From the NCBI GenBank assembly GCA_029243025.1, contig JAQWSU010000023.1, positions 1 to 63,779 of the forward strand: a stretch of DNA of 63,779 bases, written 5' to 3'. The DNA is from Pirellulaceae bacterium (GTDB taxonomy: Bacteria; Planctomycetota; Planctomycetia; Pirellulales; Pirellulaceae). Positions within the stretch are counted from its first letter, which is position 1. Each line of letters opens with the position of its first letter. Below, piece by piece: positions 20,538-52,899 of the stretch. A program made the position numbers and the translations under genes. The notes beneath the pieces were generated by a model. That model was given only the letters and a program-made list of their open reading frames with translations. It was not told where the DNA came from and did no database searches.

Positions 20538-20623
20538 TGGCCGAGGAGGGGCTCGAACCCTCACACCGGTTACCCGATACGGGATTTTAAGTCCCGTGCG
20601 TCTGCCAATTCCGCCACCCGGCC
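20538..20623 (-). tRNA. tRNA-Leu (anticodon TAA)
   Basis: The 86-nt minus-strand cloverleaf has a 7-bp acceptor stem (GGCCGGG with CTCGGCC), the class II D-arm GCGGAATTGGCAGACGC and an anticodon stem CGGGA with loop CTTAAAA giving anticodon TAA. It also has a long variable arm and a T-arm GAGGG-TTCGAGC-CCCTC. The discriminator base is A and CCA is not encoded. The long variable arm fits leucine. It reads UUA, one of the codons used in the leuA leader peptide. Confidence 0.96.
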
Positions 20624-23283: not shown

Positions 23284-23769
23284 CTAATCGCCCTTCGCAA
23301 ACAACAACGCAGCTAATTCATGCTGAATTGCAGCGGCCTCCGCTTCTGTCGGATGACAAACGGGAACTTGATACTCTTCCTCGGCACGGGGGCAGAAAAC
23401 CATCATCACTTCGTGACCTTCCGCTGTTACCTCGGAAGCCTCGAGCTTGAAGATTCGTCTCCGCAACATGAGTAAGGCAAGGATGTAAGCAACATCCCGT
23501 TTGTGATCTTGGTTTTGCAACTCTTTGAAATAGTGCAGCATGACATCATTCGGAGCCCAATGCAGTCGGTTAGCCTTCGGATCCGGAACTTCCGACTTCC
23601 ACCAACCGAGTGAATTTTCCGGTGGGCCCTTCCATTGATCCTCAGCAAAATCCTGCCTAAGCACTTCGGCCCCCTCGGCAATTAACGCCGAATAAAACAC
23701 TTCTCCAGCCGCCAGCTCTCGCTCCGAAGCTGCACAACATCGAGTGAATTTCTGGACTTCGAAATCCAT
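23284..23769 (-). CDS. Conserved planctomycete hypothetical protein
   Basis: A soluble protein of 161 residues when started at the ATG at 23769 (MDFEVQKFTRCC). The longer frame to 23913 lacks sense as protein. The N-terminus RCCAASERELAAGEVFYSAL has the look of a small metal-binding or zinc-ribbon-like turn. GPPENSLGWWKSEVPD and HWAPNDVMLHYFKEL follow, then LALLMLRRRIFKLE and a C-terminal FCPRAEEEYQVPVC. I recall similar proteins in other planctomycetes but no function. It precedes the lipoprotein gene and is divergent from the leuA leader. No clear ribosome site is seen. Confidence 0.7.
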   Translation of the reverse strand: MDFEVQKFTRCCAASERELAAGEVFYSALIAEGAEVLRQDFAEDQWKGPPENSLGWWKSEVPDPKANRLHWAPNDVMLHYFKELQNQDHKRDVAYILALLMLRRRIFKLEASEVTAEGHEVMMVFCPRAEEEYQVPVCHPTEAEAAAIQHELAALLFAKGD

Positions 23770-23935
23770 GTTCGTCGACTGTCTATCTACCAGGAAAAAA
23801 AATACCCCAGACGTCTCGCGCGGCGGGATGGTACGAAAAAGCGGCCATCGCGACAAGGCGAAGCCAGCCAACGGACGTTCAAAATGACGGCTGGCGGCCG
23901 GTTCCGACCGCAAACCTTGATGATTTCGCAGCTTG

Positions 23936-23964
23936 TTGACCGAACCAAAACCCCAAGATAGACT
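23936..23964 (+). promoter_or_regulatory. Candidate sigma-70 promoter of the leuA leader
   Basis: TTGACC at 23936-23941 and TAGACT at 23959-23964 are separated by 17 bases. Transcription would begin near 23971, about 37 bases before the leader peptide ATG. It is the only good match on the + strand between the divergent gene and the leader ORF. Confidence 0.55.
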
Positions 23965-24007
23965 CTCTTAAGTGATTGAGAATCAGCAAATCCCCCCCAG
24001 ATAGACG

Positions 24008-24064
24008 ATGTTCACGCCAGCACTGCTCCTACTGCTGCTATCGTTACTTGCCCTTGGCAGCTGA
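24008..24064 (+). CDS. Leu-rich leader peptide of leuA
   Basis: An 18-codon ORF whose product is MFTPALLLLLLSLLALGS. Nine of its residues are leucine, with six Leu codons in a row (24023-24040) and three more at 24044-24049 and 24053-24055. The codons used are CTG, CTC, CTA, TTA and CTT, so several tRNA-Leu species are sampled. It lies 311 bases before leuA on the same strand and is followed by alternative hairpins and an intrinsic terminator. This is the design of the leu leader peptides known from enteric bacteria. Slow translation at the Leu codons would report low charged tRNA-Leu. The ribosome site is weak, which is the main doubt. Confidence 0.72.
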   Translation: MFTPALLLLLLSLLALGS

Positions 24065-24132
24065 GGGCTAACGTTGGGTGAACGACCAATCTGCAAGTCC
24101 TCCCCGAGGCCTGCTTCGCATGGGTCCCGGGG
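24063..24132 (+). promoter_or_regulatory. Candidate leuA attenuator: mutually exclusive hairpins
   Basis: Three pairings can be drawn. (1) GAGGGCT 24063-24069 with AGTCCTC 24096-24102, enclosing TTGG/CCAA at 24074-24089. (2) TGCAAG 24092-24097 with CTTcGCA 24114-24120, enclosing CCTC 24099-24102 with GAGG 24106-24109. (3) The terminator stem 24102-24132. Pairing 2 uses bases of both 1 and 3, so it can act as antiterminator, with 1 as its competitor. The leader peptide ends at the first base of pairing 1, placing a translating ribosome where it could choose between them. Drawn by eye, no energies calculated. Confidence 0.55.
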
Positions 24133-24138
24133 TTTTTT
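24102..24138 (+). terminator. Intrinsic terminator in the leuA leader
   Basis: CCCCG (24102-24106) pairs with CGGGG (24128-24132) and, past one A-C mismatch, GGCCT (24108-24112) pairs with GGGTC (24122-24126). A nine-base loop closes the stem and six T follow at 24133-24138. It points toward leuA and lies 37 bases after the leader peptide stop. No other + strand gene is upstream, so premature termination of the leuA transcript is its only evident use. Confidence 0.78.
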
Positions 24139-24316: not shown

Positions 24317-24375
24317 AGAAAATTTCGATAACTCAGCAACCCTCGATGACTTCTTATCTCTTGAAGGACAACCCC

Positions 24376-25917
24376 GTGTCCAACACACGCACAATCCGCA
24401 TTTTTGATACTACACTTCGAGACGGTGAACAATCTCCCGGCGGGAGTATGAATCTCGACGAGAAACTGAAAATTGCTCACGCACTCGTCGATTTGGGAGT
24501 GGACATTATCGAAGCCGGTTTTCCCATTGCTTCACCGGGTGACTTCGAGGCTGTCCGGGAAATCTCGACGAACGTCAGCGGTGCCACGATCTGCGGCCTA
24601 GCTCGTTGCAATGAAAAAGACATTGACCGTGCCTGGGATGCGTTGAAGCAGGCCCACCGACCACGAATCCATGTCTTCTTGGCAACGAGTGCAATCCATC
24701 GCGAGTTCAAGCTTAAGATGACTCCCCAAGAGATTGTCAAACGAGCCGTTTCGGGCGTCGCACGGGCTGTCAGTTACTGCGACGACGTCGAATTCTCTCC
24801 GGAGGATGCCGCACGAACGGAAGTCGACTTCCTCTGTGAAGTCGTCGAAGCCGCGATTACAGCCGGTGCAACGACCGTCAACATACCCGACACGGTTGGC
24901 TATGCGACTCCTGCTCACATGGGACGTGTGATCAAGACGTTAGTTGACCGCGTTCCCAACATTGACCAAGCCGTGATCAGCGTCCATTGCCATAATGACT
25001 TGGGACTGGCGGTCGCAAACAGCCTGGCGGCAGTGGAAAACGGAGCTGGTCAAGTCGAATGTACGATTAACGGGATTGGAGAACGGGCCGGAAATTGCTC
25101 ACTCGAAGAAATTGTTATGGCGCTACGAACGCGCGTCGATTATTTCCAGGCCGATACGGGAATCAAATCCGAGCGACTGGTCCCGGCAAGCCGGTTGGTA
25201 TCCGGCATTACCGGTTTGCAGGTGCAACGCAACAAGGCCATCGTAGGTCGCAATGCTTTTGCTCACGAAGCAGGTATTCATCAAGATGGGATGCTGAAAG
25301 AACGCACCACGTACGAAATCATGCGTCCCGAGGATGTGGGCTTTCTGAACACCGAACTGGTGCTAGGCAAGCACTCAGGACGAGCCGCTTTGGCGGACCG
25401 AGCTCGCGCATTGGGTTTTCACCTCACGGGTGAGCAACTCAAATCGGTTTTTGAGGACTTCAAGCTGTTGGCAGACAAGAAGAAGGAAATCTACGATGGC
25501 GATATCGCTGCGATTATCAAACAGACCATTCACGCCTCGAGCTCCAGGGAAGAGTGGTCATTGGTAGCCTTTCAGTCAACATCAGGAACCGGTCGGCAAC
25601 CGACGGTAAAGCTGACGCTGAAACGGGGTGACAATGAGATTACTGAGGAGCTTTCGGAAGGTGATGGCCCCGTCGACGCAGCGTTTTTGGCCACGGAGAA
25701 AATCACAGGTATGAAACTCGCCTGCAAAGATTTTCTCGTACGGAGTGCCACTTTGGGCCACGACGCCCAGGGCGAAGTCATCGTCGAAGTGGAACATAAC
25801 GATGAAACTTATCGGGGTCGGGGCGTTTCGACCGATACGGTCGAAGCCACCGTCCTGGCAATCCTGAATGCAGTAAACCGAATCGCCACCTCGGTCGAAT
25901 CAGGCAACGAAGGCTAA
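24376..25917 (+). CDS. leuA: 2-isopropylmalate synthase
   Basis: The first enzyme of leucine synthesis: acetyl-CoA plus 2-ketoisovalerate to 2-isopropylmalate. The protein has about 513 residues. FDTTLRDGEQSPGG at residues 9-22 is the catalytic metal-site signature, HCHNDLG near residue 206 and NGIGERAGN near 236 follow, and the TIM barrel ends near residue 330. From about residue 390 a LeuA allosteric domain (regulatory, feedback by leucine) runs to the end. I chose the GTG at 24376, with AAGGAC seven bases upstream. The ATG at 24346 has no ribosome site. The attenuator-like leader implies control by leucine supply as well. Its end overlaps the convergent DUF420 gene by 18 bases. Confidence 0.95.
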   Translation: MSNTRTIRIFDTTLRDGEQSPGGSMNLDEKLKIAHALVDLGVDIIEAGFPIASPGDFEAVREISTNVSGATICGLARCNEKDIDRAWDALKQAHRPRIHVFLATSAIHREFKLKMTPQEIVKRAVSGVARAVSYCDDVEFSPEDAARTEVDFLCEVVEAAITAGATTVNIPDTVGYATPAHMGRVIKTLVDRVPNIDQAVISVHCHNDLGLAVANSLAAVENGAGQVECTINGIGERAGNCSLEEIVMALRTRVDYFQADTGIKSERLVPASRLVSGITGLQVQRNKAIVGRNAFAHEAGIHQDGMLKERTTYEIMRPEDVGFLNTELVLGKHSGRAALADRARALGFHLTGEQLKSVFEDFKLLADKKKEIYDGDIAAIIKQTIHASSSREEWSLVAFQSTSGTGRQPTVKLTLKRGDNEITEELSEGDGPVDAAFLATEKITGMKLACKDFLVRSATLGHDAQGEVIVEVEHNDETYRGRGVSTDTVEATVLAILNAVNRIATSVESGNEG

Positions 25918-52806: not shown

Positions 52807-52880
<74 letters not shown>

Positions 52881-52899
52881 CTGGTGGATTGAAGTCTCG

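Follow-up and report, generated by a model that had tools for sequence, protein, structure and literature searches.

A putative leucine-responsive leader-peptide attenuator upstream of leuA in Planctomycetes, with related elements before cimA and DAHP synthase

Transcription of leuA in a Pirellulaceae bacterium is very probably controlled by ribosome-mediated attenuation, in which translation of a leader peptide senses charged tRNA-Leu. The putative attenuator lies in the window, our term for the whole stretch of DNA analysed (63,779 nucleotides of contig JAQWSU010000023.1), and its regulatory behavior is inferred from sequence, with no transcript data. Comparison with relatives shows the parts themselves: a promoter-like site, a CTA-rich leucine leader, a terminator, and an alternative helix joining the leader end and stop codon to the 5' arm of the terminator. 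The original prediction proposed attenuation of leuA as in enterics, which sequence comparison supports, leucine-dependent read-through itself being only inferred. Beyond that prediction, the same comparisons indicate that a single scaffold underlies at least three attenuators (leuA with Leu, cimA with Ile, and DAHP synthase with Phe/Tyr/Trp codons), the window element among them. Also new are the enrichment of the rare codon CTA in the leaders and a 13-bp hairpin (24042-24073) that, in predicted folds, can hide the antiterminator arm. The parts of the window element are as follows.

23936..23964, plus strand: promoter-like site, TTGACC (23936-23941), 17 nt, TAGACT (23959-23964), from sequence, with family promoter scores given below
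24008..24064, plus strand: leader ORF MFTPALLLLLLSLLALGS, 18 codons, stop TGA, from sequence, conservation and codon use
24023-24040 (six consecutive), 24044-24049 and 24053-24055, plus strand: Leu control codons of the leader ORF
24042..24073, plus strand: predicted 13-bp leader hairpin (24042-24046/24069-24073 and 24050-24057/24061-24068)
24052..24069, plus strand: putative antiterminator 5' strand, across the leader stop codon, from the fold with a ribosome at Leu6 and family covariation
24096..24109, plus strand: putative antiterminator 3' strand, overlapping the terminator 5' arm, from predicted folds
24102..24138, plus strand: intrinsic terminator, a stem followed by T6 (24133-24138), from stability (-16.1 kcal/mol), covariation and fold
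24346..25917, plus strand: leuA, 2-isopropylmalate synthase, the controlled gene of the proposed switch, from profile matches

The main components named in the original prediction are all present. The leader ORF has nine Leu among its 18 codons, six of them in tandem; the base of the terminator pairs 24102-24106 with 24128-24132 in the fold of the window leader; and every part lies on the leuA strand. The original prediction saw no other plus-strand gene upstream, and the long ORF that lies nearest there (23284-23913) is on the minus strand. The leuA product is identified by matches to NF002086.0 (756.5 bits, cut-off 532) and TIGR00973 (712 bits, cut-off 598.7). The two remaining hairpins fared less evenly. 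A 7-bp hairpin said to start at the stop codon fits the helix 24063-24069/24096-24102, which folds as part of the antiterminator, and the proposed alternative hairpin at 24092-24120 is present but of low stability (-8.3 kcal/mol for 24090-24121). The folding energy of the window leader is unremarkable (z -0.74; 44 of 200 shuffles fold equally well), so our case is built on comparison, and the z-score was set aside as evidence.

To compare leuA loci we searched 60 genomes, the window's own included, and found the gene in 58; at least 80 leuA loci were kept from named genomes, their planctomycete status being taken from titles. After removal of duplicates (L114, L139) and of two loci with less than 350 nt upstream (L038, L054), 95 planctomycete leuA loci remained, with some species possibly represented twice. 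Each locus was oriented by tblastn. Our strict criteria called for an ORF with at least four Leu in seven codons and, 10-90 nt beyond its end, a hairpin with a T-run. The shortest start was usually chosen, so true starts are uncertain for many leaders, as are the leader frames at L043 and L134. A Leu-rich leader and terminator were found at 64 of the 95 loci. Reverse strands of these loci gave 2 of 95, and five dinucleotide shuffles gave 0, 1, 0, 0 and 0 of 95; among loci from the 60-genome search the count was 45 of 57. The same-genus relative L002 has the leader MFTRLRxLxLLSLLALGR (two codons hold N), a TGA stop and a terminator. The conservation that had been put forward as a check on the prediction, covering leader ORF, terminator and compensating changes in relatives, is thus present, the alternative helix included. 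The strict criteria failed at 31 of 95 loci, five of which (L016, L022, L061, L117, L131) match the covariance model R1 described below; this leaves 26, at which an element more than 800 nt upstream is not excluded. Among named Gemmataceae genomes, L060 meets the strict criteria and L059 fails them. Cultured planctomycetes with the element include Stieleria tagensis (L043) and Thalassoglobus neptunius (L064). A promoter-like site scoring at least 9.5 occurs within 150 nt of 55 of 63 leaders (mean 10.1 vs 7.9 in shuffles), the scoring consensus having been picked post hoc, once sequences had been inspected. In one genome two near-identical leuA copies stand divergently, some 470 bp from each other (G040:C241:16863-20374, L138). 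They do not meet the strict criteria; a third copy carries the element.

Structural comparison used 63 elements, the 64 less the near-duplicate L125. Their leaders end in TAG (43), TAA (11) or TGA (9), the base after the stop is G in 43 of 63, and spacers are 25-54 nt long. In the majority consensus, GGCCnTAGGG ... AACCCCGAGGCC-loop-GCCTCGGGGTTTTTTT, the leader end resembles the terminator 3' arm and can therefore pair with the 5' arm. Eight of the 63, of doubtful leader or hairpin assignment, were removed by hand, and the other 55 make up alignment A1. In it the terminator is paired in 91.9% of cells, with covariation of 0.403 vs 0.198 when shuffled (0 of 500 shuffles as high). The antiterminator, in which the terminator 5' arm pairs with the stop codon and 3' end of the leader, is 70.5% paired vs 66.3% in shuffles (0 of 500), and its covariation, 0.209 vs 0.152 (0 of 500 as high), is weaker than that of the terminator. 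Its doubly changed pairs and further pair types were no better than in shuffles (219 and 118 of 500 as high, respectively), and a register slid by -2 gave more doubly changed cells than the true one (48 vs 45). The covariation shuffles do not control for relatedness, and neither the shuffle nor the slide control handles kinship fully. True leader/terminator pairs are predicted to bind at a mean of -14.1 kcal/mol vs -11.9 for swapped pairs (0 of 20000 permutations), and binding peaks about 6 nt or less from the stop codon, declining on either side. By eye, TTGGG/CCCGA (24074-24078/24103-24107) also looked able to pair, and the folds give it no support. We likewise rejected GAGGGC/GTCCTC as a separate anti-antiterminator; with a ribosome at Leu6 it co-folds with 24052-24057/24104-24109.

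We modeled ribosome position by folding the RNA up to the end of the terminator 5' arm, taking the ribosome footprint to extend 12 nt beyond the first base of the A site, a general background value. Predicted sequestration of the terminator 5' arm averages 0.70 at Leu codons vs 0.16 at the stop across the 63 elements, and the Leu-codon mean exceeds the stop value in all 63. At the stop codon it is below 0.2 in 42 elements and at least 0.2 in 21. For a mid-Leu stall it is 0.73 vs 0.43 with the intervening RNA shuffled, 58 of 63 elements exceeding their own control. In the window the six consecutive Leu codons give 0.10, 0.10, 0.12, 0.54, 0.48 and 0.74, the later ones 0.39 and 0.38, then 0.80 for the last, and the stop codon 0.00; the value at the last Leu depends on the assumed footprint, falling from 0.80 to 0.04 with the edge at 14 nt. 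With a ribosome at Leu6 the predicted window antiterminator consists of 24063-24069/24096-24102 and 24052-24057/24104-24109 (-21.4 kcal/mol for 24051-24114). An attenuator of this kind should leave its antiterminator free at a control-codon stall and masked at the stop codon, and this is met, by prediction only.

When leucine is ample, then, the ribosome would reach the stop codon and mask the antiterminator 5' strand; the terminator would fold and transcription would end before leuA. When leucine is scarce, the ribosome would stall in the Leu run, in the window copy most effectively at codons 4-6, and the stop-codon region could pair with the emerging terminator 5' arm, allowing polymerase to continue into leuA. 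The 13-bp hairpin is predicted to form with a ribosome at Leu1 or Leu3 and to compete whenever the RNA upstream is free. If the window leader were untranslated, this hairpin is predicted to hide the antiterminator strand, and termination would follow. In trp-type attenuators a protector hairpin terminates untranslated transcripts; in the present family the picture from folds without a ribosome is mixed, predicted arm sequestration being 0.0 in the window and 0.01 in L002, below 0.2 in 14 of the 63 elements and above 0.5 in 32. Because these values differ among elements, the family may include both off-by-default and on-by-default versions. In the full-length window transcript the terminator fold wins in every ribosome state tested, so the switch would have to be kinetic.

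Codon choice in the leaders departs from that of the genes they precede. CTA makes up 103 of 416 leader Leu codons (25%) vs 38 of 1764 in leuA (2%; odds ratio 15, p 7e-48). CTT is also enriched (93 of 416 vs 163 of 1764), TTA is not significantly so (22 vs 63 of the same totals), and CTG, CTC and TTG are depleted relative to leuA. The cimA leaders use ATT in place of ATC (72 of 104 vs 41 of 305). According to the part of the source available, the Salmonella leu attenuator uses three CUA control codons, and theory ranks CUA above all other leu control codons in E. coli (PMC1183508). Heavy use of CUA in these leaders is independent support for that codon-choice theory, which came from enteric attenuators (PMC1183508, seen in excerpt).

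Model R1 was built solely from leuA elements. Its best match in the window's own genome precedes citramalate synthase (E 1.3e-4; TIGR00977 591.8 bits, cut-off 450), the window leuA element is second (E 0.0013), and the third lies before DAHP synthase (E 0.007; TIGR01361 382.1 bits, cut-off 267.75).

C21:10513-10590, minus strand: cimA element of the window's own genome (L140), from R1; Ile/Val-type leaders in L183-L235 and L331-L355
C32:111633-111725, minus strand: DAHP synthase element of the window's own genome (L142), from R1; Phe/Tyr/Trp-type leaders in L361-L386

The leader before this DAHP synthase is MRNCFRYFWFFYFTSRGRGPGGAL, and that before cimA is MLYTATLSIDARFYPVAPIPSGIPWIGTIRESSRA, in which Ile enrichment is modest. 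Lower matches in this genome (L143-L149) resemble ordinary terminators and were set aside. Across the order, R1 has matches at E <= 0.001 in at least 113 of 146 genomes. Sixty matches without a locus were picked by hand among the matches listed, some known leuA being left out; 29 lie before leuA, 24 before cimA, 7 before DAHP synthase and none elsewhere. With a leader marked by at least three residues of a type within six codons, 29 of 29 leuA leaders are Leu-rich, 22 of 24 cimA leaders Ile-rich and 7 of 7 DAHP synthase leaders aromatic. No Leu, Ile or aromatic mark falls on the wrong gene, and one DAHP synthase leader meets the Ile plus Val mark.

An R1-independent survey, in which 30 relatives were searched by gene family, gave the same pattern. 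An Ile or Ile/Val leader with a terminator stands at 19 of 25 cimA loci (27 fetched, one without upstream sequence and one without the motif), and an aromatic leader with a terminator at 17 of 24 DAHP synthase loci (six of the 30 retrieved lacked the motif). For cimA and DAHP synthase, respectively, reverse strands gave 0 and 0, and shuffles 0, 0, 0, 0, 0 and 0, 0, 0, 0, 1. When the Leu, Ile and aromatic rules were applied across genes, leuA met them at 64, 4 and 3 of 95 loci, cimA at 1, 19 and 0 of 25, and DAHP synthase at 1, 0 and 17 of 24. At ilvB, trpE and hisG of 20 relatives the element was found at 0 of 79 loci (paralogues and some cut flanks included), and R1 gave no match in 60 of these. 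In the DAHP synthase elements the antiterminator strand sits about 11 nt before the leader stop, not across it. At L142:1472-1593, in the DAHP synthase terminator region, R1 has matches on either strand, as it would at a two-way terminator.

In a sample of the phylum, R1 matched at E <= 1e-4 in 25 of 199 genomes. Eight of these genomes belong to a single further family of the class, and the six loci read from it are leuA with Leu-rich leaders; matches L245 and L249-L251 look unrelated. This search was insensitive: only 22 candidates were scored per genome, and the window's own element was missed. Its non-matches therefore say nothing of absence in other classes, a conclusion that we rejected. 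The attenuator scaffold may reach past the class. In another class of the phylum, the R1 match L243 has an aromatic-looking short ORF before DAHP synthase.

These comparisons bear on other explanations of the window leader. That it encodes a functional hydrophobic micropeptide, or merely loads ribosomes, with a fixed, leaky terminator and no sensing of leucine, seems to us very unlikely. The window peptide is hydrophobic and signal-sequence-like, its function being undetermined, yet the peptides have little in common except the control residue, which tracks the pathway (Ile for cimA and Phe/Tyr/Trp for DAHP synthase), and the odds of the rare codon CTA are about 15 times higher in leaders than in leuA. 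We find it slightly harder still to credit that leucine acts on translation initiation, or by way of a pseudoknot, with termination incidental. Such a model has a precedent in the actinobacterial LEU element, which, in the part of the report available, also links a Leu-run ORF to leuA, the predicted connection being a pseudoknot that involves the Shine-Dalgarno box of leuA (PMC1262725). In the planctomycete elements, however, the end of the terminator hairpin lies 8-544 nt upstream of the leuA match, and the hairpin stem is the best covarying part.

There is next to no room for a leader that binds tRNA or a metabolite directly, as a T-box or riboswitch would: the leuA loci L094 and L102 of Nitrospira do carry T-boxes, but the window has no such match at gathering score, and a relaxed search of the leader gives just a chance snoRNA match (E 3.1). 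Hardly tenable, too, is a chance pairing of a terminator with an unrelated Leu-rich frame. The ordinary folding energy of the leader (z -0.74) would allow it; conservation, at 64 of 95 loci vs 0-2 of 95 in controls and with the element present in L002, contradicts it.

Leader-peptide attenuation, the reading that we prefer, has well-studied counterparts. Enteric leuL likewise has a Leu-rich leader, a terminator before leuA and mutually exclusive helices, the hairpin arrangement for which the enteric leu operon is known. It also shares rare CUA control codons (Salmonella; PMC1183508, in part). It differs in that the planctomycete antiterminator strand crosses the leader stop, that the planctomycete set has related Ile and aromatic elements before cimA and DAHP synthase, that the phylum is another, and that there is no Rfam match; Rfam families, leader-peptide ones included, gave no gathering-score match in the window leader, L007, L024, L140, L142 or L157. 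The inferred logic is that of enteric leader-peptide attenuation, with unrelated sequence and an antiterminator over the leader end. The Staphylococcus aureus ilv-leu attenuator is also leucine-dependent, with a Leu-rich peptide and a terminator, but its predicted antiterminator traps the poly-U and leaves the terminator stem intact, and its gene is ilvD (PMC5794164, as far as available); the planctomycete antiterminator would take up the terminator 5' arm, and leuA is the gene downstream. The actinobacterial LEU element shares the Leu-run ORF before leuA, and a pseudoknot with the Shine-Dalgarno box is predicted there in place of the conserved terminator seen here; the available text terms such cases attenuators with missing parts (PMC1262725). 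A T-box leader (RF00230) before leuA senses tRNA charging as well, by direct tRNA binding and without a leader peptide, and RF00230 is not matched in the window. The sole Rfam matches in the window are two minus-strand tRNA genes (20538-20623 and 52808-52881).

The mechanism is already known; what appears new from our literature search is the sequence family, its presence in Planctomycetota and its three exchangeable specificities. The original prediction knew of no described case in Planctomycetes, and we agree, having found no report of amino-acid gene attenuation there among the matches listed; Lopatovskaya et al. 2010 (Mol Biol 44:128), which may hold a case, was not covered. A 2010 survey, seen in part, states that before its own Firmicutes case no leader-peptide system had been shown beyond Proteobacteria and Actinobacteria, the atypical ermC leader aside (PMC2965389), and a later Firmicutes example followed (PMC5794164, also in part). 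An early T-box survey, in its available portion, included one planctomycete genome, with zero T-boxes (PMC2494555). Leader-gene distances have been counted in Planctomycetes, with leuA and leucine absent from the accessible portion of that report (PMC4833913).

It is tempting to speculate that in Planctomycetes an amino-acid regulon rests on a single modular RNA chassis, in which Leu codons before leuA, Ile codons before cimA and Phe/Tyr/Trp codons before DAHP synthase are swapped over a like antiterminator and terminator, perhaps by copying and recoding one ancestral attenuator, to guard these entry-point enzymes. We consider the evidence for and against this evenly balanced. Since attenuation needs ribosomes close behind RNA polymerase, a modular regulon would imply transcription-translation coupling in this phylum, whose cell plan was once called nucleus-like. 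The elements may thus offer a genetic handle on such coupling in planctomycetes, the named Gemmataceae genome (L060) included. Control codons swapped on one scaffold amount to a natural experiment in building and re-targeting attenuators, and leader codons would predict the amino acid to which a given gene responds, in organisms with poorly known regulation.

Other phyla also have leader-like features before leuA. In Verrucomicrobia, a Leu-run ORF, MIRSGLLRRLLLLLLLEG, lies 102-159 nt before leuA (L105), with no strong terminator reported. The T-box leaders before leuA in Nitrospira (L094:2218-2450 and L102:2080-2329) are another device for the same task.
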